Below are positions 18,537 to 46,685 of a stretch of 50,265 nt of DNA, piece by piece. Source of the DNA: a virus; the IMG/VR virus record IMGVR_UViG_3300031673_000073, positions 1 through 50,265 of that record; one strand, given 5' to 3'. How positions within the stretch are numbered: the first letter of the stretch is position 1; each line of letters begins with the position of its first letter. The notes below the pieces were generated by a model. That model saw only the letters and a program-made list of their open reading frames with translations, made no database searches and had not been told where the DNA came from. A program made the position numbers and the translations under genes.

Positions 18537-18537
18537 A

Positions 18538-18915
18538 TTATTTTCGCCTCCCATTAAAATGCTTGCGCATTATCTTCGTCTGTTCCTTTGTTTCATCTAA
18601 CTGCTGTTGCTGAATACTACCATTCTTTATTGATTGTTCTGTAAGCTTACCAAGTGCATCCTCTAATCGTCCGTGATCACCTCGTAATACGGTTGCTTCC
18701 GTTCGTATCGCTTCGGTATTTGATCTAGCAACTTTAGCATCATCAATTAATGTAGATGGTATAAATTGTGTGGTAGATGGTTGCATTATACCTATACCTT
18801 CCGGGAGAACGGTTCCGTTACGTTTGGCCTTTAACCAATCGTATACAATCTTAAAGTTTAATCCTACTAACGATAACGCTATTGCGCTCTCTAGTACCGT
18901 TCTTATACCTTCCAT
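18538..18915 (-). CDS. Membrane-anchored coiled-coil protein, 125 aa
   Basis: A hydrophobic helix at residues 8-25 (LESAIALSLVGLNFKIVYDW), a Pro/Thr linker, then a long coiled coil (residues 60-125) ending KHFNGRRK. Such an anchor plus coiled coil resembles small lysis-cassette proteins (i-spanin-like or holin-associated). It directly precedes the endolysin, overlapping the latter's upstream codons. Not firmly assigned. Confidence 0.65.
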   Translation of the reverse strand: MEGIRTVLESAIALSLVGLNFKIVYDWLKAKRNGTVLPEGIGIMQPSTTQFIPSTLIDDAKVARSNTEAIRTEATVLRGDHGRLEDALGKLTEQSIKNGSIQQQQLDETKEQTKIMRKHFNGRRK

Positions 18916-22342: not shown

Positions 22343-22780
22343 CTAAACCTCTTGTAACGTTATTGAACACCTGTATATTTGTTTGCTATCATGTTGACCA
22401 GTTCTCGACCATCTTAATCCTGCTATATAACAGGTGACTGCTCCGCCACTATAAGCATCTAAATTAGCACGTCCTATTATCTCAATAGAATGAACATATG
22501 TAACAGTTACCGTTCTATCTCCAGAACCGGCTCTTATAGCATATAATCTTTCTGGTACATTATTAGTAGGTTCAAACCAAGTAATAGTAAATCTATATTT
22601 ATCATCCTCGGCCTGTTTCTTTTTCTTATCTCCTAAAGTAGTAAACTCTCTAATATTTTCTACGGCTTCATCTAATCCTGGTGCCGTTGCATAATCAAAA
22701 GTAAACTCAACCGTATCAGACCCACCTATAATACGTGGATTATATGTTCTAGTTTTTACTATAGCCTCCTGGGATTCCAC
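22343..22780 (-). CDS. Distal tail-type protein, 145 aa
   Basis: Beta-strand-rich (TYNPRIIGGSDTVEFTFDYA, FTITWFEPTNNVPE, SIEIIGRANLDAYSGGAVTC) with no catalytic motif. Its place directly after the tape measure and before the hub-like gene is that of distal tail proteins. Start ATG 22780 overlaps the tape-measure stop. Confidence 0.65.
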   Translation of the reverse strand: MESQEAIVKTRTYNPRIIGGSDTVEFTFDYATAPGLDEAVENIREFTTLGDKKKKQAEDDKYRFTITWFEPTNNVPERLYAIRAGSGDRTVTVTYVHSIEIIGRANLDAYSGGAVTCYIAGLRWSRTGQHDSKQIYRCSITLQEV

Positions 22781-25224
22781 TATATACCTCCCGCTGATCG
22801 ACGCTTAGCTTCCTGTATAACTCTAAATATTTCCTGTTTATCTTCTCCGTTTAATCTTCCAGTAAGTGATTGGATGGTAATATTAATAGTATCTCCTACG
22901 CCGCCTACACCTCCACCAATGCTTGCAGAAGTATTAATGGCATTAACCGCAGGTGCTCCACCTATAGATGATACAGCCGCTCGGCTAAGAACGGCCTCGC
23001 CCCGCTGAACTCCTATAAGCATATCTTCACCACGTGGTAATAATCCGTTCTGTGCTCCAATAATTCCACCATCTTTGAATCCTAATATAAACTTACCAGC
23101 AGCTTTACCTTCCAATGAGCCAGGTAATTTTATACCCAAAAATCTTAATGCTGACATTATTGCGAGAAATACAACGGCTCTTGCTATCATACCTGTTATA
23201 GCTGATATAAATGCCGATTTCATATCATTAAAGAAACTCTTCATAGCTTCGGTAGAAGTTTTAGCCCCCGTGGCCATATCATTAAAAGCTTTTCCGAGTG
23301 CATTACTAACGGTACTCGTTACAGTCATAACTATATTCTGCCAACGCTGCCAACGCGCTGCATCTTCATCGTTAAACTTAGTCCCTTCATTTGCTAAAAA
23401 TAAATAAAACTCTTCCCAGGTAATCTTATTAGTTAATACTAGATCTCGCATGGCCTCTTTTCTTAATTGAAATAGTTCGAACTCTTTTTCGGAAAATCCT
23501 CGTGCGGCTTCTATTAATGCTTCATCGGAGAGAGCCTTTTCAACAAAGATCGTTTCATCCTGTAATCGTTGAGCGGCTATCTTTGTTTCGGCTACTTCAT
23601 TTGCTAGCCTTTTCTCTTCCTCTGCGGAAGTCTTTATCTGCGATCTTCGATCCTCTTCTTGTTTTATAAGTGTAGCCCCGACTCTCTTCATTTGTTCCGT
23701 TGCTTTAGTAACATCATTGATACTTTTTAATCTAAGTGGTAATCCGTTCTTCGCTAATATTTTATTGATATTTCTTAAAGTTTTTTCTTTATCTGTAAGA
23801 TTCTCTATTTCCTCAGCACTCTTCGTCCAGCTTTCCGCTAGTTTAAAATTAGTATTCGCCAAACTTGCTGCCGCATTCTTTGAATCTGCGAGTTTATCAA
23901 AATATGCTGTCGATCTTTCGACAACTATTGCGAGCGCTGCCGCTACTGCGATCCACGGTGACGCTAAATTGAGAGCTGCCATCGCTATTTTTACCGCCTT
24001 AATAACCGCAATGACTTTTGTTATAGCGGCCGCCGCTCCAAGTGTTGCCGTTAATAGCAGAAGTGTTTCACCAGTAAATCGAATTATTGTTGTTACCAAA
24101 ACATTGTTCGCCTTAAACCATTCAATAGCAGATTTGGTTATGTCGGTAAATGTTTTTGCTATCTCTCTCGCATATGGAAGAAGTTCCGTACCTACCTCTA
24201 TGGCGAACGCCTCGGCGGCTGATTTCAAGAGTTTTATTTGAGAGTTAAAAGTATCGAGTTGTTTGGCTGCTATACGAGTGGCACTATCAGTTCCAGTTAC
24301 CGAATCTCGTAATTTCTCCATATCGTCCACACCACGTCGGAGAATAAAAAATGCTCCCAAAGCTCTAGCCCCGAATATCGTTTGGGCTTCTGCACCAGAT
24401 AAGTTCGCGTCTCTAAGCGCCTTAGTTAAAGCTATTGGATCTTTCATGAGCTTACCTAGCCTTTCGGTGGTAAGCCCAACCCTATTTAGTATTACCGAAG
24501 CATCCCCTACTGGTTTCTGAAGACGTAAAAATATATTCCGCAGAGCCGTACCGGCTTCCTCCGCTTGGAGATTACTATTGACAAGAGTACCAAGCGCAGC
24601 AGTAGTATCTTCTATTGAAACTCCAAGAGCACCAGCCAGAGGAGCTACGGGACGTAAAGCATTTGTTAAACGTTCCATAGTTAAAGCCGAGTTTTCGTTT
24701 GCAGCAGAAAATACATTTGCAACACGACCGGCTTCTCCCATACCAAGACTAAATGCTCTAAGGTTTCCTATAACCGCTTCGGTAGTAGAAGCTATTTCGG
24801 ATTGAGTTGCCGCCGCAAGATCTAATGCTGGTTTAAGAACATCTCGGAAATCCTCGGCGGTTTTTATACCCTGTGATCCAAGCGCAAACATAGCGGCTCC
24901 AGCCTGGGATGCCGAGAAGATTGTCGCCTTACCCATCTCGACTGCAATATCTGATAATTCTTTTAAACTATCTCCAGTAGCCCCCGTAACCGCCCCGACG
25001 TTTGCCATAGTTTGTTCGAAAGCTCCAGCGACTTTAATAAGCCCAGCGAGCGCTAGACCAAAGGCGGCCGTAGCAACAGCGGCTCCTTTAAATCCGGCAC
25101 CTGCTAATGCTATACCTTTTTGTAATTGTCCAGCTTGAACTTGTGCTGCCTTTATAGCCGCAGAAAATTGCGTGGCATCTAACTTAAGACGAGCAAATAG
25201 ATTACCAACAAAACTCTCAGCCAT
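22780..25224 (-). CDS. Tail tape measure protein (TP901 type), 814 aa
   Basis: Residues 60-270 have the TP901 core pattern: AFEQTMANVGAVTGATGDSL, KATIFSASQAGAAMFALGSQ, TTEAVIGNLRAF, ERLTNALRPVAPLAGALGVS. Hydrophobic helices occur around residues 385-440 and 670-700. The last third is Gly-rich with GGGVGGVGDTINITIQ. The length predicts a tail near 0.12 micrometre by the usual 1.5 angstrom per residue rule. It overlaps the end of the chaperone T frame by 8 bp, the standard gene order. Confidence 0.92.
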   Translation of the reverse strand: MAESFVGNLFARLKLDATQFSAAIKAAQVQAGQLQKGIALAGAGFKGAAVATAAFGLALAGLIKVAGAFEQTMANVGAVTGATGDSLKELSDIAVEMGKATIFSASQAGAAMFALGSQGIKTAEDFRDVLKPALDLAAATQSEIASTTEAVIGNLRAFSLGMGEAGRVANVFSAANENSALTMERLTNALRPVAPLAGALGVSIEDTTAALGTLVNSNLQAEEAGTALRNIFLRLQKPVGDASVILNRVGLTTERLGKLMKDPIALTKALRDANLSGAEAQTIFGARALGAFFILRRGVDDMEKLRDSVTGTDSATRIAAKQLDTFNSQIKLLKSAAEAFAIEVGTELLPYAREIAKTFTDITKSAIEWFKANNVLVTTIIRFTGETLLLLTATLGAAAAITKVIAVIKAVKIAMAALNLASPWIAVAAALAIVVERSTAYFDKLADSKNAAASLANTNFKLAESWTKSAEEIENLTDKEKTLRNINKILAKNGLPLRLKSINDVTKATEQMKRVGATLIKQEEDRRSQIKTSAEEEKRLANEVAETKIAAQRLQDETIFVEKALSDEALIEAARGFSEKEFELFQLRKEAMRDLVLTNKITWEEFYLFLANEGTKFNDEDAARWQRWQNIVMTVTSTVSNALGKAFNDMATGAKTSTEAMKSFFNDMKSAFISAITGMIARAVVFLAIMSALRFLGIKLPGSLEGKAAGKFILGFKDGGIIGAQNGLLPRGEDMLIGVQRGEAVLSRAAVSSIGGAPAVNAINTSASIGGGVGGVGDTINITIQSLTGRLNGEDKQEIFRVIQEAKRRSAGGI

Positions 25225-25932: not shown

Positions 25933-26799
25933 TTATGCGGTTGTAAAATCAGATGAGAAAATCGCCGTCTGGACGTTTCCGTTCGTATCAACTAGCCCGG
26001 TTACGACTACCCGATGTTTCGTAGCGGCCGAGAGATCGCTAGTCGGATTTAGCGTGATTTTCTTAGACGCGGAAGCCCAGCTTAAAGCCGCTGGGATTAT
26101 CGCGTCATTAGAATCGTCAATCAGCATCACCGCATTCGCAACCATCGAACTTTCGCGCAAATCATCGGCGACGAGTATTATCTCAACATTCACACCAACT
26201 GCCTGAGCGGCCGCACCATCTACTGGTGTAATACTTGCGACGCTCGGGGGAGTTACATCAGCCAATGCTGTTGGATCACCAATAGAAAATAGGTGATTCC
26301 CCTCGGACTTAGCTTCATCAATAAGACAGCGCCACACTACGCTATAACTGCGAACGCCATTGTGAATAAAAGCGAACGCAACTGCGTCATTAACGTAGGC
26401 TTTGTGGAAAGTCACATCCTCGGTAACATCCGCAACGGCATTAACTATAGGATGAAGCGTAAGAACACCAGCATCGCTCCGCGCGCGGTATCCAGCGGAT
26501 CTTCCGATCGAGACATACTCTTTCGCTCCGTCCACAACTTTAATTGCACCACCTAAAACTAACTGAAGATTAGTAAGCGTAAACTCAGATAGGATTGTGG
26601 TACAAGTTACGATTTGAGATTCAAGAATAGCATCTATAGGAGTCGAACCAAACTGGTCGACTACTATATCCGCCCACGTCGGCTCTTCACTCACCTCCTG
26701 TCCATCCTGGGTAAATCCAAGCGTTACACCTTTAAAGACGAGCGAACATGGGCCCGCCTTTAGATTAGCTACTGTTCCGCCTTGCGTTGCCTGAACCAT
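25933..26799 (-). CDS. Major tail tube protein with C-terminal Ig-like domain, 288 aa
   Basis: Residues 1-185 form the tube-type domain (VANLKAGPCSLVFKGVTLGF, then strand-rich core). Residues 188-288 start TPPSVASITPVDGAAAQAVG and end VVTGLVDTNGNVQTAIFSSD, an SbsA/BIG-type Ig-like fold that would decorate the tail surface. Position just before the G/GT chaperones matches the tail tube gene. Surface Ig domains are thought to bind glycans weakly. Confidence 0.85.
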   Translation of the reverse strand: MVQATQGGTVANLKAGPCSLVFKGVTLGFTQDGQEVSEEPTWADIVVDQFGSTPIDAILESQIVTCTTILSEFTLTNLQLVLGGAIKVVDGAKEYVSIGRSAGYRARSDAGVLTLHPIVNAVADVTEDVTFHKAYVNDAVAFAFIHNGVRSYSVVWRCLIDEAKSEGNHLFSIGDPTALADVTPPSVASITPVDGAAAQAVGVNVEIILVADDLRESSMVANAVMLIDDSNDAIIPAALSWASASKKITLNPTSDLSAATKHRVVVTGLVDTNGNVQTAIFSSDFTTA

Positions 26800-27813: not shown

Positions 27814-28121
27814 TAAACTATTACCTCTTTATGATGTATAACCCCATTACCACCTGGCACACTTTCAACTCTTATTACATCTTCCTCCCTGCCATCCGGG
27901 AGAACTACTCGATCATTAGAAGTTATCACTACACTTGGCTGTAGAAATATTCTCGCTATAGTTTTAGTAATCTTTCCGGATACATCAAACATCTCCTCAT
28001 CAATATATTCTATCCTCGCTGAGTAATTTACCACAGATCCGAATCCCTTATCTCCATATGCGCTATTACTACTTCGCGTCTTAATACCTACCGTCTGATT
28101 TATAAGAGAATCAAATGACAT
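27813..28121 (-). CDS. Head closure / head-tail adaptor-like protein, 102 aa
   Basis: Short beta-rich protein with a strand order of phage head-closure proteins: YSARIEYIDEEMFDVSGKIT, IARIFLQPSVVITSNDRVVL and PDGREEDVIRVESVPG. Located between the connector and gp10-like genes, where HK97 gp7/SPP1 gp16-type proteins lie. Stop and start overlap neighbours. Confidence 0.75.
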   Translation of the reverse strand: MSFDSLINQTVGIKTRSSNSAYGDKGFGSVVNYSARIEYIDEEMFDVSGKITKTIARIFLQPSVVITSNDRVVLPDGREEDVIRVESVPGGNGVIHHKEVIV

Positions 28122-28732
28122 TATGTACCTCGCATAGATGATTCTATATCTCGACGTTTATAATCTTCAATCATAGTCCAAATATTTTTTGGAATATATG
28201 TACTCTCCTTAACTGCGTTGGGATCTTTTCTGTATTGATAATTACCAATCTTCTCAGAAATAATCTCCGATGATACGACCGTTGGATTATTAACGATATA
28301 TCCAACCATTAATATTGCCGCAAAGTTTACTTCGGCCGGTATCGTTGTATACCCTGCCGTATATATTATCTCATAATTTCTGTCTCCCCGAGTAAAAAGT
28401 GGTAAAGATCGATATATCCTCGGAGTATCATCTGTAACACTTTTAATTTTTATAATACCTTCAATCAAATACGTGGCTATGGATTCAAGATCTACCGATA
28501 TATCATCCTCCTTGATGCTGGTAATAGAGATAATCGGATAATTATAAAGTCGGATACTCCTCGAATCAGTTCCGTCCCGAACTTCGGTATAAACCGTTTC
28601 GCGAAGATCGCGATCAAGCGCTCTATTAAATATAGCTGTAACCCTCGGGATATCAGCAGTTATAGCGACATCTTTGCTCGCATCAAACCCGAAGTGAGCC
28701 TTGACTTCTGCTATCGCACAATAGTCGGACAT
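28121..28732 (-). CDS. Head-tail connector (gp6-like), 203 aa
   Basis: Starts MSDYCAIAEVKAHFG with an Asp-rich helical start (ADIPRVTAIFNRALDRDLRE), strands (SRSIRLYNYPIISITSIKED), and YEIIYTAGYTTIPAEVNFAA. The 'YTAGY...P' segment is typical of gp6-like connectors and their relatives. Role: ring joining portal to tail. Confidence 0.8.
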   Translation of the reverse strand: MSDYCAIAEVKAHFGFDASKDVAITADIPRVTAIFNRALDRDLRETVYTEVRDGTDSRSIRLYNYPIISITSIKEDDISVDLESIATYLIEGIIKIKSVTDDTPRIYRSLPLFTRGDRNYEIIYTAGYTTIPAEVNFAAILMVGYIVNNPTVVSSEIISEKIGNYQYRKDPNAVKESTYIPKNIWTMIEDYKRRDIESSMRGT

Positions 28733-29241
28733 TACACTCCCTTCTTACCTTTCTTATTCCCTGGCTTTTTATCACCAGTATCATTATCTTTTGGATCTTT
28801 TGGGATTTCCTTTTTTCCCGTTCCGGATAATTCACCCTTAATTAATTTCCATCCTCTCCGAATTAGATCTCGAACATTGGATTCTTTTCTTACATAAGCA
28901 ATACGTTTTACTACCGGCGCAACTTCAGTATAAAAATATTCAGTCCAGTTAGTACCAGGTTCCTTTTCTGGAGCCTCGATCTGATATGGATATTCTAAAT
29001 AGTCCATATTTTTCTCGGGAATTTTCTTCTTCTTCGGCTCTACTTTTTTTAATGATTCTGGATTGGTAGATTTATCCACTGGTTTAATACCAGGATCATT
29101 AGTTGATGTTTCATTCGGAACACGATTAACATTCTTTTTATCTCCCGTACTTTTCACAGCACTATCTTCAGTTTTCTCTTTCGGAATGGGTTTGCTAGTG
29201 TTTTCTGTGTTCTCGATTTTAGTCGTTTTGTCTACCATCAT
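28732..29241 (-). CDS. Disordered Lys-rich protein, 169 aa
   Basis: Residues 1-80 and 140-169 are low-complexity, rich in Lys, Thr, Asn, Pro and Glu. A short ordered-looking part lies at 90-135 (TNWTEYFYTEVAPVVKRIAY, SNVRDLIRRGWKLIKGEL). It could be a minor virion or scaffold-like protein. No signal peptide, in contrast to the next five upstream genes. Confidence 0.65.
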   Translation of the reverse strand: MMVDKTTKIENTENTSKPIPKEKTEDSAVKSTGDKKNVNRVPNETSTNDPGIKPVDKSTNPESLKKVEPKKKKIPEKNMDYLEYPYQIEAPEKEPGTNWTEYFYTEVAPVVKRIAYVRKESNVRDLIRRGWKLIKGELSGTGKKEIPKDPKDNDTGDKKPGNKKGKKGV

Positions 29242-29252
29242 ATCCTCCTCTT

Positions 29253-29699
29253 TTATTTACCTTCGGTTGTAATAAATACCGCCGCGCGGTCTTTTATCGT
29301 AGTTAAATCCGGAAATTCAATCTCTTCTATTAATTCTCTATCTGGTGTAATAAGCATCAATGTATCATCGGCATTAATTCTTTTGACGATCTCAGCGACG
29401 TTCTCTATTGGTACTACCATTATTATTAAACACGAAGTAGCCGGAGATCCGTCTTTGTCTGAATCATATGTGACGGTATCGCTACGTCGCAACATTCTAA
29501 TTTGATAAGATATCTTTGGTATCAGTCTTCCAGGTTTGATATCCACAGGAGCGCGGATTATGATTATAACATCATCCGCTTGCACAACTGATTTAGTGAG
29601 ATCTACCATTTCAGTATCATTTAACTTTACCACCGTTCCAGCTGTTACTGAATATGATATAGCGGTAAACAATAATATCAGCAATAGTAATTTACGCAT
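29253..29699 (-). CDS. Secreted small protein with signal peptide, 148 aa
   Basis: MRKLLLLILLFTAISYSVTAG is a textbook Sec signal peptide, with cleavage predicted after TAG. The mature part is a strand-and-helix domain (KSVVQADDVIIIIRAPVDIK, then IIMVVPIENVAEIVKRINAD) without known motifs. Lies after the beta-helix gene in the block of exported proteins. Confidence 0.75.
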   Translation of the reverse strand: MRKLLLLILLFTAISYSVTAGTVVKLNDTEMVDLTKSVVQADDVIIIIRAPVDIKPGRLIPKISYQIRMLRRSDTVTYDSDKDGSPATSCLIIMVVPIENVAEIVKRINADDTLMLITPDRELIEEIEFPDLTTIKDRAAVFITTEGK

Positions 29700-29711
29700 G
29701 TTCCCTCCACG

Positions 29712-30734
29712 TTAAAAACCAATTCCCATCATCATCAACGATCCGCGTGGCAACGATATTATCGACGGATATTCATAAGCGCCCATATCAAAATTACTGT
29801 TTTGTGGTCTCGTAGTTCCTTCGATGTCCGGTGTTATTCCGGTGGTATCACCAGCATCTATGTTCGCTTGGTCGCCGGCCATTTGCCATCCAGTAGGTAT
29901 TGCCGTGGATATTCCGGTGAATGTGATCGATGTAGCAAACAAATTTCCCGTTCCCCATCCACCAGTGTCAGTCTGTTGTTCGAAACAATTATAAGTATAA
30001 TTAGCTTTTGTTGGAGTACCACCAATATCAGTAGTATTGTCTTGATATAAATTATGTTTTATAATATCAGCCGCCCCGCCCGTTCCGGTTCCGACACTGC
30101 AATTCCTTATCGTATTACAGTTTATATTGAGCGTTGAACCAGCTGCTCCTAAAAAAGATATCCCAGCATCAGATATGTCATGTATATAATTCGTGCGTAT
30201 CGAATATGTCGAACCTGCATTTGAATTCGTGATAACTATTCCCGACTTTCCAGTTCCCAAAATATTGCAATTCTTGAACGTGAAATTGATAGCGCCAGAA
30301 CCAAGAATATTCGTGGTGTTGTTATTAGCTTTAGTGCAATCCAATGTCACATTGTCGATTACAACGACAACATTATTCGTTCCGGCATATCCGATTGGAT
30401 GAGTTGCCGCGTTCGTGAATGTAAAATCTGTATTATCGCCTTGCCCGAGTATAGTGATCGGTCCAACGCCGGCATTACCAAAACCAACGGCTCTGACTAT
30501 TGGAGTATTCCCTAGTTTATTCCGTAGAGTTCTCTCGCTACTAGGTAACCACGTTTCTGCATAAGTCCTGTCATCCTGGATTTCTAATATGTCGCCAGCC
30601 AATGAAACTGCTTCGGCAGGGGCAATAGCAGTATATCCACAACCACTTAGGCATATTGTTCTCAATGTAGGAGCACCGAACATTGATACACCGATCAACA
30701 TCGATAATAGGAACGCATAGATATTTTTAAACAT
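29712..30734 (-). CDS. Exported parallel beta-helix protein, 340 aa
   Basis: The N-terminus MFKNIYAFLLSMLIGVSMFG is a signal peptide. Residues 90-250 contain repeated Asn/Thr/Ile-rich turns (INFTFKNCNILGTGKSGIVI, NTIRNCSVGTG) typical of right-handed beta-helices like pectate-lyase or choice-of-anchor proteins. The ending DMGAYEYPSIISLPRG is common in such secreted repeat proteins. It may bind or cleave polysaccharide; no catalytic residues are obvious. A signal peptide is unexpected for a virion protein. Confidence 0.78.
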   Translation of the reverse strand: MFKNIYAFLLSMLIGVSMFGAPTLRTICLSGCGYTAIAPAEAVSLAGDILEIQDDRTYAETWLPSSERTLRNKLGNTPIVRAVGFGNAGVGPITILGQGDNTDFTFTNAATHPIGYAGTNNVVVVIDNVTLDCTKANNNTTNILGSGAINFTFKNCNILGTGKSGIVITNSNAGSTYSIRTNYIHDISDAGISFLGAAGSTLNINCNTIRNCSVGTGTGGAADIIKHNLYQDNTTDIGGTPTKANYTYNCFEQQTDTGGWGTGNLFATSITFTGISTAIPTGWQMAGDQANIDAGDTTGITPDIEGTTRPQNSNFDMGAYEYPSIISLPRGSLMMMGIGF

Positions 30735-31621
30735 CAGTAGTCTCCTATCGTAGGATATGAAGTCCCGAGCGAACTCCTGAATCTAATGGAATCGATCCAG
30801 CAATTACATTCAAGCGTTCCATCTGATTTTGCTCCAACATAACTGACTTGATTTGTCGGTTGTGTCGTTGCCGCGCTTGTTAATCTTTCTGTACCATCGA
30901 CCAATAATTTAGTTCCATATCCAACACCGCCCATTTCAAGCTCGAGGTGATACCATGTGCTTTCATTTATTCCAGTCCACCAGCCAGGAGCGCCGTTATT
31001 AAATGACAGCTGGCTCCAAGCCGCAAGCAAATTATTGCTTCCGGATTCCCATATGCGTTTAAAGTTTCCGTTCCAAGCAATAGCTCCACGATTGAACCAC
31101 ACCTCAACAACGTATATTGTTTCTGTTATAGCAGATGATGAATAAATATAATCACCACCACCTTCTAATATAGGTCCAAAGGCATATGATCCTTCTTTGA
31201 CAGTAACCGCATCGAATGGCACAGTTCCGTTTTCAGTCCACGCATACACTCCTTTAAGATCTGAAAAATCATTTTCCGCCAACATCATTGCCAGCGTTCC
31301 TTGCCTGACTACCTTTGTAGGAGTATTAATATCATCAACTATGTAATCGTAAGTATCTGAATTGATAGAATTGGCAATCCAATCGGTGAGCGTAATTGAT
31401 ACCGCTATATCAAGAACGGCATTAGAACCTTCGCAAGTAACCGCTCCCGTTTCAGCGCTTGACCATGTAACCCCGGCATCCCTCGCGACCACCACTGTAG
31501 ATATACAATGATCGCACGTTCCTGCATCAATGATATAACAGAGATCTACTTCCGAAGTGGCAGCCATAGCCGCACCTGCGACCATGACCGCCATTAAAGA
31601 TGACCATATTTTTTTAATCAT
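30734..31621 (-). CDS. Exported LamG/concanavalin-like protein, 295 aa
   Basis: MIKKIWSSLMAVMVAGAAMA is a signal peptide with AMA cleavage site. After a strand-rich part with CDHC, residues 120-290 resemble a LamG-type sandwich: SDLKGVYAWTENGTVPFDAV, IAWNGNFKRIWESGSNNLLA, YHLELEMGGVGYGTKLLVDG, then CNCWIDSIRF. Such domains bind glycans or proteins at surfaces. Start overlaps the beta-helix gene stop region (30734). Confidence 0.75.
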   Translation of the reverse strand: MIKKIWSSLMAVMVAGAAMAATSEVDLCYIIDAGTCDHCISTVVVARDAGVTWSSAETGAVTCEGSNAVLDIAVSITLTDWIANSINSDTYDYIVDDINTPTKVVRQGTLAMMLAENDFSDLKGVYAWTENGTVPFDAVTVKEGSYAFGPILEGGGDYIYSSSAITETIYVVEVWFNRGAIAWNGNFKRIWESGSNNLLAAWSQLSFNNGAPGWWTGINESTWYHLELEMGGVGYGTKLLVDGTERLTSAATTQPTNQVSYVGAKSDGTLECNCWIDSIRFRSSLGTSYPTIGDY

Positions 31622-31629
31622 ATTTCTCC

Positions 31630-33432
31630 TCAGTCAACCAAGATATATGTGAAACTTCCATCACATGATACCGCTCCGCTCAACTCCATATTCAATAAAG
31701 TATTCGTTCCGGTTTCAAACCATCCTAGCGGATTGTAAGGTAGAACGAATCCCTCGTTTGCTATGAGTTCCATCTGACCTGTCAATGCAGTTCCCCCTGC
31801 TCCGCTCTCGAACCTAACAGTTACCGCGCCAGCAGCGACCATGAATAATGATAGCACTCTGATCTTTTTCCCGGCAACAGCAGTCTTTAATGTATTATCA
31901 CCCGCTCCTGCATAATCTATGATCGCTCTCGCTGAAGCAATAACAGTAGTTCCCTGCATCAATCCGTCCGTACTAACCAGCGCGGCAACGGCATCAGTTG
32001 TAGCGGCCAATGCCGGGCTTGATTCTACATCTACCTGTACTGCCCCGCCAGCATCCACTTTAACGGTTTGTATATTACCACCGGTAGTTCCGGAAATAAG
32101 AATCGGATCGCCAGCCGTTCCAATTGCCGCACCGTCCGCACCGGAACCCTGAACAATTGCGGCATCAGATCCCGTTGCATTATCTATTATAGTAGTAACC
32201 GGAGCTTGATCACTCGCTATCACTACTGGCAAAGATGCTGCCGATGCAGCTGCACCCTGGGAAGGTATCTTTGTGTCAAGCGATGTTGTGTCACCTGCTA
32301 TCACTCCCGTATCTGTATCTATTGTCGCAAGAGTTGCTTGAGTAGCAAGAGCGACACCACCATCCCCCGATACTTCGAGATCACCCGTTCCGGAAAGGCT
32401 TGACATATTAGTTCCATCAGTCAACCGGACAAGAATTCCATCATATACTGCGCCATTATCTATCATCATGCTTTCAGATCCATCGGTGAGACCAACGGAT
32501 TGTCCCGCTGCTATACTGACAGCTTCCGTGAATCCAATATCACCATCAATTGTTAAACTATTCCCTCCATCCTGAATATTAACAGCGGATCCCGCCCCGG
32601 CATTATTGATAGTTACATCTCCGATATCAGTTCCGCTAACAAGCTTCCCATCTATACTTGATAAACTTCCATTACCAGTCGTTTGATTAGCTGATGTAGC
32701 TGCACCAGTAGGTAGAGATACAGTTCCGGAAACATTCGTTATGTTCCATGTTCCACTTTGAGTTGCAGCGACCGATCCATCAACTGTAAGCGATCCTCCG
32801 TTATCGTCAACGCTGAGCAACCCTGTTGAATCAGTTGGCAACGTAACCAATATTGCAGATGCTTCCAATCCTCCGCCGACTGATATCTTTCCATCAATCG
32901 AAGTCGTATCTCCCGATATTACTCCAAGAGCTGTATTTGTAACTGTAACACCTGCATCGATCGCATCTAGGGAAGCGTTCCCAACTGTAACGCCAGCATC
33001 GATCGCATTCAATGATGTGTTAGACACTGTAACTCCTGCGTCAATAGCATCAAGAGAAGTATTTGCGATAACCTGATTAGCAGATGTTGCTGTTATAGTG
33101 TTGAGTTGAGCAGATATAACTCCTAACCATCCGTTGCCAGTATTCGATCTCCAATCAAGTTGAGCCAGAGTTTCTTGTTCTGCCGGATTGATAGTATTAC
33201 CTAGTGCATCAAGTATATATGATGCAGTTGGTAATGTATTACCTCCAGCCGAAATTATAAGATATCCTTCGTCGGTCATGCGCTGATTTCGCATTTCACC
33301 GCTGGCATTTATGCCTCCGTTACCAACATTGCGATTTGCGTCTCTCTTTAATATTTCCTCGGTCGCCTGTAAACCATTAGTCGTAAACAAGACCAGGCCG
33401 GCGACCAACACGCCTATAATTAATTTTCTCAT
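31630..33432 (-). CDS. Exported repeat-rich head-fibre-like protein, 600 aa
   Basis: MRKLIIGVLVAGLVLFTTNG forms a signal peptide. Residues 120-175 carry four copies of a 13-residue unit (N-x-S/A-L-x-AIDAGVTV). More Ser/Thr/Gly repeats follow, including ASLPVVIASDQAPVTTII, common in phage fibre proteins. The C-terminal 100 residues (KKIRVLSLFMVAAGAVTVRF, LIANEGFVLPYNPLGWF) form a small beta domain often seen at ends of phage decoration fibres. Both virion and surface roles are possible. Confidence 0.75.
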   Translation of the reverse strand: MRKLIIGVLVAGLVLFTTNGLQATEEILKRDANRNVGNGGINASGEMRNQRMTDEGYLIISAGGNTLPTASYILDALGNTINPAEQETLAQLDWRSNTGNGWLGVISAQLNTITATSANQVIANTSLDAIDAGVTVSNTSLNAIDAGVTVGNASLDAIDAGVTVTNTALGVISGDTTSIDGKISVGGGLEASAILVTLPTDSTGLLSVDDNGGSLTVDGSVAATQSGTWNITNVSGTVSLPTGAATSANQTTGNGSLSSIDGKLVSGTDIGDVTINNAGAGSAVNIQDGGNSLTIDGDIGFTEAVSIAAGQSVGLTDGSESMMIDNGAVYDGILVRLTDGTNMSSLSGTGDLEVSGDGGVALATQATLATIDTDTGVIAGDTTSLDTKIPSQGAAASAASLPVVIASDQAPVTTIIDNATGSDAAIVQGSGADGAAIGTAGDPILISGTTGGNIQTVKVDAGGAVQVDVESSPALAATTDAVAALVSTDGLMQGTTVIASARAIIDYAGAGDNTLKTAVAGKKIRVLSLFMVAAGAVTVRFESGAGGTALTGQMELIANEGFVLPYNPLGWFETGTNTLLNMELSGAVSCDGSFTYILVD

Positions 33433-33466
33433 TTTATACTTCCTCCTTAATGTTGGTTGCCGGCCT

Positions 33467-33489
33467 GGGGGACGGATTATCCGTCCCCC
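33467..33489. other. Intergenic GC hairpin upstream of 31630-33432
   Basis: GGGGGACGGA (33467-33476) pairs perfectly with TCCGTCCCCC (33480-33489) around a 3-base loop. No T-tract follows on the minus strand, so it is more likely an mRNA stability or processing structure than a terminator. It lies in the leader between two exported-protein genes. Confidence 0.65.
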
Positions 33490-33498
33490 TTAACCAGA

Positions 33499-34563
33499 TT
33501 AGTCCCTTATATCACATTCGATATCTGCCGTCTGAGTTGCACTTGATTTTAACCGGGCCCATCCATTAAAGCCACTATAGGCCGGAACTATAAAAATTTC
33601 GGGCGTTGTCGCCGTAGCCGAAGTTATCGTAACGGCTGAATCAATACTCCTTATTAGCGCGGGATTAAGCGCCTCTTTGGCCTGTGTGTAATGCGTTTCT
33701 ATTTCTGTAAGCGTAGGTGAATCACCTAAGACCATCTCGACACTATCGATCTTTCCGGCGAAAGTAGTCGTAGCTGATTTCGCAGCGCCCACGTTAAGCG
33801 ATACTGCATTACTAAGCGTTAGAGCGGCATTAGTTACCGTAGCTGTTGCGGCCAATACACCATCAACATTAATGGTAAGAGCCGTTCCCCTACGGACGAA
33901 CCATGCTAAATGCCATACGCTGTCATCGTACTCGGTGGTAGTCGTAGCCACATCGGTAGTCGCTCCGCTATCATCGCTGATACTAAATACCAGCGTACCC
34001 GTAGCACTTAGATAAGCTTCATACCCGGTCTCATTTCTGCTTGTACCATCTTTCTTATTAAAGAGATGGTCGATATCGGCACTCGTTGTATGATTAAACC
34101 ATACACCTAATGCAAAGTCTCCCGTCCCTACATCAAAATAAGCATTATCTGGTACAGTCAACCAGGTATTAGCTACGGCCGTCAGATCGAACCCGAGCCC
34201 ACCTACACCAGCGGTTGTCGACATAACGGTAGTGGTATTCGATGCGAAATCCGCACCGTTTCCGTGATTCCCTACAACCGTTGATACGGCCGCTTCCGAG
34301 CAATATAGATGAACACTATATGCCGAATCGGAAACCCCTGGTAATATTGGCATCGCCCCAGATCCGAGATTTGCACGAGTATATTCTACCGTAATGGCAG
34401 AACTCACCCTAGTAGGAACTCGAACCGAGAACGCATTACCAGATACGTATGCGGAACTCGATACCGTAGGATCCTTGCTAACATCGAACGTAACGATATC
34501 GGCAAGGACTATGCTTGGTAACGCAAATAGAAGCGCTACCAAAAAACAAGTCACTTTTCTCAT
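33499..34563 (-). CDS. Exported LamG-domain protein, 354 aa
   Basis: MRKVTCFLVALLFALPSIVL with cleavage near LAD is a signal peptide. Residues about 120-290 are a LamG/concanavalin fold: TWLTVPDNAYFDVGTGDFAL, GVWFNHTTSADIDHLFNKKD, YDDSVWHLAWFVRRG, AGKIDSVEMVLGD. Expected to bind glycans or proteins. It directly follows the major capsid gene; capsid-neighbour genes usually encode cement proteins, but those lack signal peptides. Confidence 0.8.
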   Translation of the reverse strand: MRKVTCFLVALLFALPSIVLADIVTFDVSKDPTVSSSAYVSGNAFSVRVPTRVSSAITVEYTRANLGSGAMPILPGVSDSAYSVHLYCSEAAVSTVVGNHGNGADFASNTTTVMSTTAGVGGLGFDLTAVANTWLTVPDNAYFDVGTGDFALGVWFNHTTSADIDHLFNKKDGTSRNETGYEAYLSATGTLVFSISDDSGATTDVATTTTEYDDSVWHLAWFVRRGTALTINVDGVLAATATVTNAALTLSNAVSLNVGAAKSATTTFAGKIDSVEMVLGDSPTLTEIETHYTQAKEALNPALIRSIDSAVTITSATATTPEIFIVPAYSGFNGWARLKSSATQTADIECDIRD

Positions 34564-34584
34564 CTTACTATCCTCCTTTTTTTA

Positions 34585-34614
34585 GGCGGGGGGAGGTTTA
34601 TCCTCCCCACCACC
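34585..34614. other. Intergenic GC hairpin downstream of major capsid gene
   Basis: GGGGAGG (34590-34596) pairs with CCTCCCC (34602-34608), flanked by further imperfect G/C pairing (GGCGG with CCACC). Without a T-tract on the coding side it probably sets a different mRNA level for the capsid gene than for the exported-protein genes after it. Confidence 0.6.
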
Positions 34615-34639
34615 GATTAACTATACCAGTTTCGTAAAA

Positions 34640-35563
34640 TTACGCCGCTGGGATTATCCTTTTGATCTGCGAAGTCTTTACAGGGTTCTTATAAACGAGG
34701 GTCAGATCCTCAAATATTTCGAACGCATCGAATTGCGATGAGGTTTTAGCGAGATTAACAAACGTCAACGGAGTCAATTCACCAATAAAAACCTCGGTAG
34801 TATCGAGAATATAAATCCTCGATTCGTTTCCGCCACCTTCTGTTATTGAAATAGAATTGGATGTATAGATCGGGATACCATCATAAGTTTTCAAGCGGAA
34901 ACCGCCATTAACTTCAATGATATCATTAAAGCGCTGTTTGCTCTGATTCAGGGCATTAAGTTCCCGAGCAGTACGTTTTGATGTAATGATCATATCAGCG
35001 TTGCCTTTCACAAGGTCAATCGCCTCATCCATCGCCGCGAGAGTAAGTTCGGTTCCTAACAGATCGAGTGTCTGTCCGGCCTGCGCATCAAGTAGGATTT
35101 TAAGACCATCGTATTCTTTCGGGGATCCGGTTGCATCGCCATTTATTAAAGCATCCTCCTCGAGATCCTTAATAACCTGCATACCGTTTTCGATTTCATC
35201 CATCAAAAGATCTCCGAAAGTTCGACCAACCGCCTGGGCCTTCCTCGTTACCTGGCCCTGAAAAGCAGGGGTCTTGTACGGGAAAGCAGTCCGAGTATAC
35301 GTTCCGTTAGAATTGTTAAGCGTTTCTGTATCATTAACAAACGCTCCTGCTCCACGATCCGTTCTGCGAGTAACGTTCCAGTTCTCGCCGCTCCCACCTT
35401 TACGCATTAGATTCTGACGTAGCGGGTTACGGACTTCGATAAGATCGGCTATGACGACATCGATCTCTTCTACGGTAAGAACACCACTAACCGCAGCCTG
35501 ATCAAGCGCTTTAGCGACCTCGTCCTGATTTATCCGTGTATTCCAAATATCGTTTCTCCACAT
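34640..35563 (-). CDS. Major capsid protein (HK97 fold), 307 aa
   Basis: Residues 20-60 are an N-arm (SGVLTVEEIDVVIADLIEVR), then NVTRRTDRGAG and TAFPYKTPAFQGQVTRKAQA, typical of HK97-type capsid loops. DLLMDEIENGMQVIKDLEED matches the spine helix, with the peripheral A-domain later (MIITSKRTARELNALNQSKQ). It directly follows the protease/scaffold gene. Length fits a capsid without a separate N-terminal scaffold domain. Confidence 0.88.
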   Translation of the reverse strand: MWRNDIWNTRINQDEVAKALDQAAVSGVLTVEEIDVVIADLIEVRNPLRQNLMRKGGSGENWNVTRRTDRGAGAFVNDTETLNNSNGTYTRTAFPYKTPAFQGQVTRKAQAVGRTFGDLLMDEIENGMQVIKDLEEDALINGDATGSPKEYDGLKILLDAQAGQTLDLLGTELTLAAMDEAIDLVKGNADMIITSKRTARELNALNQSKQRFNDIIEVNGGFRLKTYDGIPIYTSNSISITEGGGNESRIYILDTTEVFIGELTPLTFVNLAKTSSQFDAFEIFEDLTLVYKNPVKTSQIKRIIPAA

Positions 35564-35592: not shown

Positions 35593-36093
35593 TTACCAAA
35601 GTTTCTCACCCTGACGTCCCATCGTCTTAGCGATAAGATATACCAATCTATTCCCGGCGGGTATATCAGCCGCTTTAAGAACAGGAGCCTCGGTTTCCAC
35701 CTGGCTCGTTTCACCTTTCGGTTTCGCGAGTGCCTTAGCAACCTCGGCCGCTACGCGCGCCTCAAACATCTCCGGAGTAATAGCCTGAACCGTAACCGAT
35801 TCATTCGTCTTTGCGGATTCCGTGATAGTCTTAACCGCATCAACGACCGCCGGCTTTTTACCAGATAGAATATCTATCTGTGCCGTAAGGGCCTTAAGCG
35901 TATCACCTATAACTGATAATGCTTTACCACTTTCGTCCGGTTTCACTTCCGCAGGAGTTACCGCAGGATCTTCGACCGGAGCTACTGTTGAATCTACTAC
36001 CGGAGGAGTTCCCTCTGTCTTTACCGGCGGAGTTTCAACTGGCTGTCCACCTTCAGGCGCTCCCTCTTCGTTCTTGTTCACTACTTTTGACAT
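35593..36093 (-). CDS. Scaffold protein from an internal in-frame start, 166 aa
   Basis: ATG 36093 (MSKVVNKNEEGAPEGGQ) lies in the protease gene right after GGAGGGAGGTAAGGAAAAA, an unusually strong Shine-Dalgarno for an internal codon. The predicted product is the disordered linker plus helical tail, the properties of a scaffold protein. The layout is like lambda C/Nu3. That it is used is an inference from the RBS. Confidence 0.68.
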   Translation of the reverse strand: MSKVVNKNEEGAPEGGQPVETPPVKTEGTPPVVDSTVAPVEDPAVTPAEVKPDESGKALSVIGDTLKALTAQIDILSGKKPAVVDAVKTITESAKTNESVTVQAITPEMFEARVAAEVAKALAKPKGETSQVETEAPVLKAADIPAGNRLVYLIAKTMGRQGEKLW

Positions 36094-36690
36094 TTTTTCC
36101 TTACCTCCCTCCATGATTGAATGATTTGCTATTGACTTACTGATCGCCGAGGCAAAGGACTTCTCTGCCTCAACTCTTTCGAAGCCCGTTACTCTCGCGG
36201 CGCGATTAGCGGCGATAGAAACGAGCGACACTTCCACGAGATCTATCTCATGGATTATAAATATCATTTCGTTTTTTGATTCATCCATCTTTCTCTCGAC
36301 CTTTAACGCTCTACCCCGGATCGAGAACTTAGATATAATACCTTCTTCGATCTTTCTCCGAATAGTGGGTTCAGTCTTAGATATACTAATTTTTACTTTA
36401 AGCCCCTTACCCTCGATGGCTTCCGCTTCTTCGATCTTCCCGATAGGCTTATCAGGATCATGGTTAAAAAGAGCGGTCGAGTTTTTCAATAAGCCTTTCG
36501 CCGCCTTCTTTAAAGCGTTAAATGTTATTACATCTCCCTGCTCGTCGAGATCCGATGTAGATGCAAACCCTTCTACAAAAAAATCATCTTCATCGATTTC
36601 CCCAAGCATCTGCTTTTTAATATCGAACTGAACATCTATCGGAAACACCCCCTCTAATACACCTATTTCTTCTACTACTGCCATCGACAT
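35593..36690 (-). CDS. Prohead protease (U35/HK97 type) with C-terminal scaffold part, 365 aa
   Basis: Residues 35-60 read DDFFVEGFASTSDLDEQGDV (family G-x-A-S-x(4)-D entry). LFNHDPDKPIGKI near residue 93 has the catalytic His. ISKFSIRGRALKV near residue 119 has the catalytic Ser. After about residue 195 comes a disordered Pro/Glu-rich linker and a helical tail, as in protease-scaffold fusions. An internal start at 36093 probably also makes the scaffold alone. Confidence 0.87.
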   Translation of the reverse strand: MSMAVVEEIGVLEGVFPIDVQFDIKKQMLGEIDEDDFFVEGFASTSDLDEQGDVITFNALKKAAKGLLKNSTALFNHDPDKPIGKIEEAEAIEGKGLKVKISISKTEPTIRRKIEEGIISKFSIRGRALKVERKMDESKNEMIFIIHEIDLVEVSLVSIAANRAARVTGFERVEAEKSFASAISKSIANHSIMEGGKEKMSKVVNKNEEGAPEGGQPVETPPVKTEGTPPVVDSTVAPVEDPAVTPAEVKPDESGKALSVIGDTLKALTAQIDILSGKKPAVVDAVKTITESAKTNESVTVQAITPEMFEARVAAEVAKALAKPKGETSQVETEAPVLKAADIPAGNRLVYLIAKTMGRQGEKLW

Positions 36691-36693
36691 TTC

Positions 36694-37347
36694 TTACCTC
36701 CCTTTTTTAGAAGCAGTACCAACTAACGCGGCGAACTGCTTTGATAATCCATTAAGATCATCGTCCGGCGGCCCGTGTTGTATTTCTCTCTCGGACATCT
36801 CGGAAATTAATTCAACGTGCCTTTCTATAATATCCTTAACCGATTTTTCGGACTTGCCAATGACGACTTTATCGCCAGATGATCTCCGCTCATAGAAAAC
36901 GTGTATTAATCTATGAGCTTGCATTAACGTCCTCTCATCATACGCACCCTCATCCTTAAATAACATTTCAAGTGTTTTATAATAATCATCACCCTTAAAT
37001 ACTATATCCGGGACTATTGTGCGAAGCGCTTTTTCCCTGAATACTCTTCTCGGGGGATCCCAACGTTCTATTAATTTAAACTCAAAACCCCATAGTGTCT
37101 CAGATTTTTCCCACCATCTACGACGTTCATTATCAGATATACGATGATTACTGTCATATTTGGAGAACACATCAACGCTCATTCTTTCTCGGGATATTAA
37201 TTTAATTATTCCTAATCCTATATCTCCCTGTAAAAGTGTAAGATTTTCGCCAAGCTCTTTACTGAGAGGAATATCTTTTATAATCAAAGTCTTTGATCCT
37301 TCGATTAATAGATCACCGTGAGGAAAAGCTAAAACTATGCCTTTCAT
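36694..37347 (-). CDS. ASCH/PUA-like domain protein, 217 aa
   Basis: GSKTLIIKDIPLSKELGENL, LQGDIGLGIIKLISRERMSV, then HRISDNERRRWWEKSETLWG and FKLIERWDPPRRV follow the beta-barrel ASCH pattern, a PUA-related RNA-binding fold. The second half is helical and charged. ASCH genes near portal and protease genes are seen in other phages; the role is unknown. Overlaps the portal gene by 4 bp. Confidence 0.68.
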   Translation of the reverse strand: MKGIVLAFPHGDLLIEGSKTLIIKDIPLSKELGENLTLLQGDIGLGIIKLISRERMSVDVFSKYDSNHRISDNERRRWWEKSETLWGFEFKLIERWDPPRRVFREKALRTIVPDIVFKGDDYYKTLEMLFKDEGAYDERTLMQAHRLIHVFYERRSSGDKVVIGKSEKSVKDIIERHVELISEMSEREIQHGPPDDDLNGLSKQFAALVGTASKKGR

Positions 37348-39548
37348 TCTCCTGCCTCCTCGAGCGCCTGTTGCGGTGTCTTTCCGCTGGCCTCGCTCTT
37401 AGATGATGGGACGATCGTGCATCGGCAATTAGGATGAACCGGAAGCAATCCTTCGGCATCCGCTATTTCATATGGCCCACTGGCAGCTAAAGATATACAC
37501 TGTTCTTCTGCTCCGGTTGTAAGTTGTATATCAAAAAGTAATATGCCTTGAGATTCAAAAGCTGATTTCCTCGCGGAGTTAAACGCCCTAAGTGTTTCAG
37601 TCCTGGCTACTAATGTCGCCCACGCCTCGGCAGATAATGTTCTGGTCGCAGCTGCTCCGTTGCGTATATAATTATATGTAATAGCTTTATCCCATACGCT
37701 TCCGATCCTTTCCGCTATCTTATCTATCCCCTCGCCTGCCTGAATACCATCGCGAATAGCAGAGCGTAGTTTTAGTTTAATATCTTCCTTAAACTTAACA
37801 GTTATGGCCGATGTTCTTATATCAATATTCTCAAAATCCCCCGGAGATGGGCCCCACGCTTTAGGATCTAATCCCGCCTCTATGAGCCCGTTCTTGCCAC
37901 CCCACTCGAAAGACTTTTTAGTTTGAGTTGATAATATATCTTCAAGCCTACCTTCATCAATTATCCTAGCTAGATCTTCTGCCGGGCTCTTTTTAATGTC
38001 TAATGATTTTGGGATATCGGCTCTCCGTATTTCACGGATAGCTAAAGTTTTCCATCTGATAAGTTCACCAAGTACCGCTTCCTTAGTTGCGATAAACCTC
38101 TCGTTATTTTCAAACCAGTTAGCATCCCTATAAGGTTTTGGTGATCCTTTTGATATTTTCATTTTAGTATCATCCACCTTTTCTAATTCGCGTAGACTAG
38201 GATCACGCTCTGGCCCTTCGCCTCGTCTTTCCCGCGCCTTCCCTCTATCTACTTGAACCGGCTTAGTATCGAACTTAATCTGAGGAACCGGGCCTTCAAT
38301 TCCGAGCTTTGCGCGCGCTTCTTCGACACTAATTACTCCTTTTTCAAGTAAAACACCTACAGCTTTCGCCATAATCTCAAATGTTTCGGTCTTGGTTTTA
38401 GCAATATCCGATTGTTCTTTCTCGGATTGAGTATCTATGGGATTCCAGAAAAACTCTACATCATAAATACTAAGCGCTCCTTCTATAAAGAACCTATTGA
38501 TCCTCGCTGATACTCGCGTCTGTTTTGGCTCAACGGTCTCTTTTTTATAAGTCTTATCCTGTTGTTCGCCACTACCTGCTCCAATATTTCCTGTTTCGAT
38601 GATAGATACTTTAGATGGCGGGACACCGTAAACGGCTAATATCTCATCTCGGTCGAAACTACGCAACTCGAGGAAGCCTGCCTCTTTCGGATTCGCCTGG
38701 TTACTTTGAAATTTCGTCTTCCCCTCGAGTATCATAAACTTATGGGAGTTTCCGGATCCCTTATGTTCCTGATCTATATACTCTCTATTACGGCGAACAA
38801 CATCACTTGGAGCGCCCTCCATGTCTATTATCCCGCCAGGTGATGCATCGTTTTTAAAGAATCCAAGATTATAATTTTGGGCGTGTATATCTGTAGCAAT
38901 AGGCATCTCGAGAGACTGCAAAGGAGATATTCCTTTCGTAGATGATCCCTTTGTCGATAACGGGAAATATATAACTTCCCACGGTTCGAATTCGATCTTT
39001 TTTCCGCCCTTGGTTTTTTGGACAAATTTCTCGATCTTGCCATTCTTGTCAGTTTTAGGTTCGGTCGTTACCGGATCAAGTGTATACATAGCGACCACCG
39101 GATCCGTTCTCTCTCCCGCGCCGCTCCTTACCAATTCCCAAAAGCCTCTGCCAAAGATCTCGTTATCCTCGAAGATATTAACAAATAGTTCGATGCCATC
39201 ATCCTGGTTATTTGGACGATGTAATATCGCTTTAACTATTTCGCAGTTCTGAATAGCGCCTTTTGATTTCTCGTATCCCTTTTTCGGGCGTACTCCCCAG
39301 CCTCGGCCCGTGGCGGTTCTGGTTATTGAATTAACGCAAGCGCGAACCCATGAAACCCTTAGATATATGTCCCAAAGAGTCGAGGGTGGTAATATATTAT
39401 TTGAGAACTGGATGCCCGCCCCCTCGATCTCACCTCTTGGCCCATTAGTATCTCTATTGCGCCCGCGCGCGGCATCACGGGCGGCAATAGAAATTGCCGC
39501 ATCCTGTTTTGGGGCGAACATATTAGATATTTTTTTAATTATGTTCAT
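37344..39548 (-). CDS. Portal protein fused to MuF-type head morphogenesis domain, 734 aa
   Basis: Residues 60-420 have portal features: STLWDIYLRVSWVRACVNSI, KAILHRPNNQDDGIELFVNI, PWEVIYFPLSTKGSSTKGIS, RNREYIDQEHKGSGNSHKFM, ILAVYGVPPSKVSIIETGN. Residues 590-720 are the MuF / SPP1 gp7 domain: AWATLVARTETLRAFNSARK, TTGAEEQCISLAASGPY, ending with LLPVHPNCRCTIVPSS. In many phages these are two genes; a fusion puts one MuF unit on every portal subunit. Confidence 0.88.
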   Translation of the reverse strand: MNIIKKISNMFAPKQDAAISIAARDAARGRNRDTNGPRGEIEGAGIQFSNNILPPSTLWDIYLRVSWVRACVNSITRTATGRGWGVRPKKGYEKSKGAIQNCEIVKAILHRPNNQDDGIELFVNIFEDNEIFGRGFWELVRSGAGERTDPVVAMYTLDPVTTEPKTDKNGKIEKFVQKTKGGKKIEFEPWEVIYFPLSTKGSSTKGISPLQSLEMPIATDIHAQNYNLGFFKNDASPGGIIDMEGAPSDVVRRNREYIDQEHKGSGNSHKFMILEGKTKFQSNQANPKEAGFLELRSFDRDEILAVYGVPPSKVSIIETGNIGAGSGEQQDKTYKKETVEPKQTRVSARINRFFIEGALSIYDVEFFWNPIDTQSEKEQSDIAKTKTETFEIMAKAVGVLLEKGVISVEEARAKLGIEGPVPQIKFDTKPVQVDRGKARERRGEGPERDPSLRELEKVDDTKMKISKGSPKPYRDANWFENNERFIATKEAVLGELIRWKTLAIREIRRADIPKSLDIKKSPAEDLARIIDEGRLEDILSTQTKKSFEWGGKNGLIEAGLDPKAWGPSPGDFENIDIRTSAITVKFKEDIKLKLRSAIRDGIQAGEGIDKIAERIGSVWDKAITYNYIRNGAAATRTLSAEAWATLVARTETLRAFNSARKSAFESQGILLFDIQLTTGAEEQCISLAASGPYEIADAEGLLPVHPNCRCTIVPSSKSEASGKTPQQALEEAGE

Positions 39549-46680: not shown

Positions 46681-46685
46681 GGCTT
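46520..46685. repeat. Dispersed repeat of the MTDK(T)LSKE genes, copy A
   Basis: About 165 bp are nearly identical to 47948-48110 (copy B), differing by roughly ten substitutions and a 3-bp loss in B (KTLS becomes KLS). Both cover the N-terminal half of the gene and its start junction. It shows that gene cassettes here duplicate and recombine. Confidence 0.85.

Follow-up and report, generated by a model that had tools for sequence, protein, structure and literature searches.

Why would a tailed phage place a run of genes with export signals in the middle of the operon that builds its head? This question is raised by IMG/VR virus record IMGVR_UViG_3300031673_000073, a stretch of 50,265 bp (hereafter the window) from an uncultured tailed phage with HK97-type head genes, in which five consecutive genes at positions 29253-34563, directly downstream of the major capsid protein (MCP) gene, encode proteins that each begin with a predicted signal peptide. 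The virion proteins of tailed phages are regarded as cytoplasmic. An export-tagged cassette in a head operon is unexpected because such particles are assembled within the cell. Our preferred answer, to which we assign a probability of roughly 45%, is that the five genes form a late-expressed cassette whose products would be exported by the host Sec system and attach to virions.

An initial interpretation made from the DNA letters alone (the sequence-only reading) proposed an undescribed phage secretion cassette that delivers glycan-binding proteins to the periplasm or cell surface, for superinfection exclusion, envelope remodeling or joining to virions at the envelope. Rumen phages are reported to carry zero to two signal peptides per genome (PMC5723332), and a signal-bearing endolysin is described for one phage (PMC8951688). 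In the literature we searched, which excluded most subscription journals, no description of such export cassettes was found, and the proposal that the arrangement is undescribed stands to that extent.

Results

The five open reading frames (ORFs) are present on the minus strand, each with a Shine-Dalgarno sequence upstream, exactly where the sequence-only reading placed them. We refer to them by their first coordinates: 33499 (33499..34563), 31630 (31630..33432), 30734 (30734..31621), 29712 (29712..30734) and 29253 (29253..29699). Signal peptides were called with a rule-based program of our own, which requires a basic n-region, an uncharged 10-residue core with a mean Kyte-Doolittle (KD) value of at least 1.9, and Ala, Gly or Ser at position -1. 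When calibrated on 49 kb of E. coli K-12, the caller found all nine exported proteins and lipoproteins (MalE, LamB, MalM, AphA, YjbE, YjbG and YjbT, and the lipoproteins YjbF and YjbH) plus one membrane protein, PdeC. In phage lambda the calls were limited to Lom, Bor, Rz, Rz1 and RexB; Lom was the sole call among the late virion-region genes, and no gene of the late block from nu1 to tfa was called apart from the five named. Among the 86 genes of the window there are six calls, specifically the five consecutive cassette genes and a lipobox protein gene of the lysis region. A run of five adjacent called genes has a p value of about 5e-6 by label shuffling over these 86 genes, and one of 87 spurious plus-strand ORFs serving as a control was called. 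The claim of Sec-type signals on five consecutive genes is thus borne out.

All five N-termini have a basic n-region, a net charge of +1 or +2, and an uncharged hydrophobic h-region of about 10-15 residues, with core means of 2.3-3.2. Textbook cleavage sites follow in 33499 (MRKVTCFLVALLFALPSIVLA^D; VLA^DI), 30734 (MIKKIWSSLMAVMVAGAAMA^AT; AMA^AT) and 29253 (MRKLLLLILLFTAISYSVTA^GT; VTA^GT), and an acceptable one is present in 31630 (MRKLIIGVLVAGLVLFTTNGLQA^TE; likely LQA^TE), such that the cleavage-like sites expected of all five proteins are weak in 29712 alone. A lipobox of the form [LVI][ASTVI][GAS]C right after the hydrophobic h-region is absent in four of the five. The one proper lipobox among the called genes of the window belongs to the lysis-region protein, which lies outside the cassette. 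We rejected 29712 as a lipoprotein because its LSGC (residues 29-32) lies too far past the core, beyond an arginine.

The predicted mature parts also differ from the proteins encoded around them. Lysine plus arginine make up 0.03-0.05 of residues in four of the five, versus a median of 0.124 for other virion-region genes, and 30734 and 29712 together contain 13 cysteines in 591 residues, versus 17 in 5170 residues of other virion-region genes (Fisher p 3e-6). This composition, low in basic residues and in two cases rich in cysteine, appears typical of secreted proteins. N-termini of the Sec or Tat type direct translocation and cleavage, and from these features we infer that the proteins are cleaved and exported in the cell. 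Export across a membrane is, in our judgment, highly probable.

Is the cassette maintained in related phages? The sole near relative found in IMG/VR is IMGVR_UViG_3300028840_001400 (hereafter G001; 49,997 bp), whose TerL and MCP are 68% and 65% identical to those of the window and whose late genes are syntenic with it; searches of IMG/VR with the MCP, portal, LamG (33499) and 30734 proteins returned nothing beyond G001 that retains the block. The G001 slot between the capsid gene and the homologue of window gene 28732-29241 holds four genes, of which three have called signals and one has an ambiguous hydrophobic N-terminus. The LamG gene has a full-length homologue in this slot (57-58% identity), adjacent to the MCP gene there too, and its signal keeps the MRK start, the hydrophobic core and the cleavage-site alanine as core residues vary. 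Gene 31630 retains its signal and N-terminus in G001 (43% over 61 residues) with its body replaced, and the remaining cassette genes of the two phages are unrelated by BLAST. The place of the window's later cassette genes is occupied in G001 by a signal-bearing gene (L004:19038-20492) that encodes a long Thr/Pro-rich TPTATPT stalk.

The strongest predicted RNA hairpins of the late head region lie on either side of the LamG gene, in the window and in G001 alike. In the window, these lie on the minus strand at 34580..34615, between the capsid and LamG genes (-24.5 kcal/mol), and at 33460..33495, between the LamG and 31630 genes (-25.0 kcal/mol, z -3.8). The G001 hairpins, at 36016-36051 and 37146-37181, reach -24.5 kcal/mol in the capsid-LamG gap (z -3.6 and -2.9 for the window and G001 pair) and -26.3 kcal/mol in the LamG-31630 gap, and the hairpin sequences differ between the phages. 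Intrinsic-terminator calls on the coding strand include none of the LamG-flanking hairpins; these may be mRNA-stabilizing elements around highly expressed cistrons. A single stronger hairpin appeared in the window scan, at 17400-17435 in the lysis region.

Export-tagged genes recur well beyond this pair. A search of IMG/VR with the 31630 repeat module yielded 78 loci, and in the 74 where the ORF was readable the caller assigned a signal peptide to 12 homologues, from ten distinct phages. When only genes of at least 100 residues are counted, runs of three or more tagged genes occur at five loci versus 0.2 expected, and shuffling never produced more than three such loci; because L221 is almost identical to L222, these loci amount to about five phages only when L222 is taken to represent the two. 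Several of these runs adjoin portal, terminase, adaptor or capsid genes. Specifically, six tagged genes in a row (five at 100 residues, six at 60) follow the portal gene in L197, six follow the MCP and head-tail adaptor genes in L214, those of L221/L222 lie between the head-tail adaptor and an MCP of phrog_212, the MCP family of the window, and those of L228 come just before TerL and portal; L243 contains a further run. Signal genes in L052, L066 and L067 were excluded as parallels, being located after fiber genes and, by gene order, toward the presumed lysis region.

Two of these phages, L214 and L221, additionally have Tat-type starts (for example MKFSRRNFLLAGAATIAISQDAEA^W). The mature parts encoded by L214:12424-13947, L214:14861-18916 and L221:12264-15044 start with W[WF][PR]HG, and one of the Tat-type L214 proteins has Big_13 and LamG domains. 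In catalogued phage records the Tat-type L221 protein has no match, and the three cassette proteins searched, from L221, L228 and L234, have none or partial ones, those being environmental. Because the signals are conserved in position in G001, recur, and include the Tat type, they are not the product of one odd genome or of a chance hydrophobic N-terminus. Recurrent export cassettes in unrelated phages therefore appear to be real, as judged from gene order and predicted signals.

What do the other phages do? The remaining 62 of the 74 homologues of the 31630 module have no called signal. At the three loci inspected they reside within the head module: in L169 behind the MCP gene and one more head gene, in L172 upstream of the genes for decoration protein and MCP, and in L176 in the interval that separates the head protease/MCP region from the tail completion gene. 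The signal-less L172 protein and 31630 have C-terminal domains that are 60% identical. Similarly, a small domain of about 100 residues stands alone as a protein with a signal in L197 and L228 and forms the C-terminal end of proteins that lack one in L176, L211 and L227. The Chloroflexota provirus L150 encodes a signal-less LamG protein (PF13385, 75.6 bits) between its MCP and the following adaptor-like gene. These homologues imply that the slot serves probable virion decoration or fiber genes, to which a minority of phages have added export signals; the cassettes were apparently made in this manner. Together with the hairpins that bracket the LamG gene, they point to virion decoration at least as much as to a role at the envelope.

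The products themselves are diverse. The 354-residue protein of 33499, the first gene after the MCP gene and 76 bp from it, follows its signal with an N-terminal domain, a LamG domain (PF13385, E 4.3e-14, 53.3 bits versus a cut-off of 27.6) and a C-terminal beta region. Protein 31630 (600 residues) has a conserved N-terminal segment, a repeat-rich fiber-like body and a C-terminal beta domain, whereas 30734 (295 residues) is cysteine-rich, with six cysteines in its mature part. The cassette had been described as LamG-like twice; this holds for 33499 and fails for 30734, in which Pfam matches no LamG domain. Since 33499 thus has the sole Pfam-supported LamG domain of the five, glycan binding is suggested for one product rather than for the set. 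Protein 29712 (340 residues, seven cysteines) has a signal-peptide-like N-terminus and a beta-helix-like part that passes the cut-off for the NCBIfam choice-of-anchor Q domain (NF041518, 31.4 bits versus 25), although the beta-helix assignment itself is below the Pfam threshold (PF13229, E 0.0022). In the 18-residue tail after this domain, PSIISLPRGSLMMMGIGF, we recognized no known cell-surface sorting signal. Finally, 29253 (148 residues) is a small protein with no family match in profile searches, Pfam and NCBIfam included, and a low-confidence AlphaFold2 (AF2) model, with a predicted local distance difference test (pLDDT) score of 50, leaves its description as an alpha/beta protein tentative.

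The cassette sits firmly within the late genes, all of which are carried by the minus strand. About 255 bp are identical at both ends of the record, with one mismatch by eye, which indicates a near-complete phage genome. Its late genes include TerL (39555-40850), a portal with a MuF-like C-terminus (37344-39548), an S78-type prohead protease (35593-36690) and the MCP (34640-35563; PF17236 E 2e-9, phrog_212 E 5e-18). On the other side of the cassette, one non-exported gene (28732-29241; its G001 homologue is 51% identical over 51 residues) separates it from the head-tail adaptor (28121-28732; phrog_442 E 5e-24), followed by connector genes, a tail tube-like protein (25933-26799) and the tape measure (22780-25224). 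The cassette therefore lies between the major capsid gene and the connectors, as first described. Intergenic gaps from the MCP gene through the cassette to its last gene are 76, 66, 8, -1 and 12 bp. Promoter-like and terminator-like sites that might give the cassette its own control are at the shuffled level, and its GC content (0.41-0.48) is continuous with that of the surroundings (0.37-0.47).

Cultured relatives are distant, with TerL identities of 33% to Tunturiibacter phage Tunturi_4 and 27-31% to Thermus phages, and no comparable block is annotated in Tunturi_4 or phiFa. MCP relatives were found in 36 of 350 Chloroflexota genomes, none of 338 from Verrucomicrobiota, none of 299 from Pseudomonadota, and weakly in one of 201 from a fourth phylum; the best single Chloroflexota TerL match is 36%. 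These matches hint at a Chloroflexota host, which at such distance they do not establish. Many Chloroflexota are single-membraned, and if the host is as well, then the term periplasm would not apply.

Several further arrangements were seen along the way. Small Chloroflexota genomes of about 0.9-2.1 Mb (L145, L147, L150, L151, L155, L156, L160, L162 and L165) contain conserved blocks of portal, scaffold, MCP and adaptor genes, with an MCP of the family found in the window; these are perhaps domesticated or gene-transfer-agent-like. Metagenome-assembled genomes (MAGs) of Verrucomicrobia, Kiritimatiellae and other members of the Planctomycetes-Verrucomicrobia-Chlamydiae (PVC) group (L091-L101, L105, L109) carry TerL-portal-MCP elements, several copies per MAG (L093/L094, L095/L097, L091/L101/L109), and in some a signal-bearing gene lies beside the capsid gene (L105:8405-8659, L095:12572-13783). 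Next to the lysis region of the window, an amidohydrolase gene unusual for a phage (15552-16622; PF04909, E 1e-21) is present, and within that region the lipobox protein mentioned above (17485-17934; phrog_7590), a possible outer spanin, is next to a glucosaminidase endolysin (17958-18554; PF01832, 31.9 bits versus a cut-off of 30.2). Many small genes at 753-1952 and 46411-48919 end in KGAK or KGES. Their final codons also serve as the Shine-Dalgarno sequence and start of the following gene (AAGGGGGCGAAATGA), so dense gene packing is the probable cause of these shared C-termini.

Discussion

We hypothesize that the five genes would be expressed late, together with the capsid and connector proteins, and that the host Sec machinery would move their fiber-, lectin- or beta-helix-type products across the cytoplasmic membrane. 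The LamG protein would be the abundant one of the set, and the cysteine-rich members could form disulfides outside the cytoplasm. Exported proteins would gather there and attach to virions at lysis, as a decoration or fiber layer folded in an oxidizing compartment. Such a cassette may have originated by the addition of signal peptides to proteins that other phages encode without signals in the same slot, and may also draw on protein families that cells use on their surface. Attachment to virions is the more tentative part of this proposal, and somewhat short of an even chance. We favor it on account of expression together with the capsid late in infection, the hairpins, an N-terminus of 31630 that stays constant while the body varies, and the signal-less homologues in head slots.

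Known virion proteins match this proposal in part. Capsid decoration proteins and head fibers (lambda gpD, T4 Hoc and head proteins of the Ig/LamG type) are like the cassette in that their genes lie beside the MCP gene and encode beta-rich binding domains. T4 Hoc and other known head decorations are assembled from the cytoplasm without a signal peptide, which lambda gpD likewise lacks when checked with our caller, and in this they are unlike all five cassette proteins. The coat proteins pIII and pVIII of filamentous phages are virion proteins with cleaved Sec signals, assembled at the membrane and released by non-lytic extrusion. They share the Sec signal with the cassette, whereas the window derives from a tailed dsDNA phage with HK97-type head genes.

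Several observations weigh against export followed by virion attachment. The good hydrophobic core of 29712 is followed by a poor cleavage site, and the AF2 models of 33499 (pLDDT 33) and 29253 supply no fold evidence for decoration. No run of three tagged genes occurs in 65 TerL-matched viral control loci, nor is there a similar block among 35 distant MCP relatives in Chloroflexota, and the export cassette is therefore not general. Moreover, because capsids are assembled in the cytoplasm, an exported decoration could join them only after lysis, and we know of no tailed phage in which this occurs.

The strongest competitor, which we nevertheless hold to be unlikely, is that the proteins, once exported, have their target in the host envelope or beyond the cell rather than in the virion. 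Late in infection they might cover the cell surface or its glycans, keep progeny or competing phages from re-adsorbing, or bind debris, as a multi-gene counterpart of Lom and Cor. This role would suit the signal peptides, the LamG domain of 33499, the choice-of-anchor Q domain of 29712 (a cell-surface protein module) and the turnover of genes in the slot between the window and G001. It also has a precedent, given that lambda Lom and Bor are phage-encoded with Sec signals, and that lom lies inside the late tail operon and was found by the same caller. Cor of phages phi80, N15 and HK022 is presumably another exported phage protein encoded in or near a late operon. However, Lom, Bor and Cor are beta-barrel proteins or small lipoproteins that act in lysogens and are encoded by single genes outside the head module, not as a set of fiber, LamG and beta-helix proteins, and no Ail/Lom beta-barrel domain was matched by Pfam or NCBIfam among the products of the cassette. 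Exclusion does not usually require five large proteins encoded in a single translational block that includes the capsid gene, and the lack of a separate promoter or deviating composition, together with the signal-less homologues that other phages encode in the head slot, also argues against an envelope role.

Far less probable is that the genes are recent moron-like cargo from a host with no coherent phage function. The differing contents of the window and G001 would fit, as would the resemblance of 29712 to cellular choice-of-anchor Q/beta-helix surface proteins (NF041518), with which it shares this domain and a signal-like N-terminus. Unlike them, 29712 ends 18 residues past the domain with no recognizable sorting signal, and it resides in a phage head operon. 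Against the cargo reading, the LamG gene is 57% identical over its full length, near the 65% of the MCP, and retains its signal features and flanking hairpins, the GC content is continuous with that of neighboring genes, and similar cassettes exist in unrelated phages.

Least probable of all, if by little, is that the N-termini are assembly elements of ordinary, cytoplasmically assembled head fibers, such as peptides that dock on the capsid or target its lumen and are removed by the phage's prohead protease. The location between MCP and connectors, the S78-type protease and the head-module homologues invite this view. The T4 capsid-targeting sequences (IPI-III, Alt) are likewise N-terminal extensions on proteins made with the head, and they are amphipathic and cut by prohead protease rather than basic-hydrophobic-AxA. 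Against this view, the n-, h- and c-regions seen here fit signal peptidase sites, the mature composition is like that of secreted proteins, the Tat motifs on neighboring cassette genes of L214 and L221 are hard to read as anything except export, and 62 of the 74 homologues manage without a called signal.

Of the original interpretation, an export-tagged gene cassette inside a head operon survives, through its conservation in G001, its recurrence and the Tat-type signals; glycan binding by the whole set, action in a periplasm and the suggested parts in exclusion or remodeling stay conjectural. A broader possibility is that several unrelated lineages of uncultured tailed phages export some of their late structural proteins by Sec or Tat, which would let decoration or fiber proteins mature outside the cytoplasm before they are mounted on the particles at lysis. 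We consider this doubtful, and such two-compartment virion assembly is a route not described for tailed phages.

Annotation pipelines label capsid-adjacent genes as structural. If the signals described here are functional, then one of two things follows: part of virion assembly takes place outside the cytoplasm, or the strongest late operon of the phage makes secreted proteins. In the latter case, a dying cell could shed binding proteins coded by the phage into its environment. The existence of signal-bearing and signal-less versions of one protein family offers a ready natural comparison. Either outcome, if true, would alter the reading of late phage genes recovered from metagenomes.

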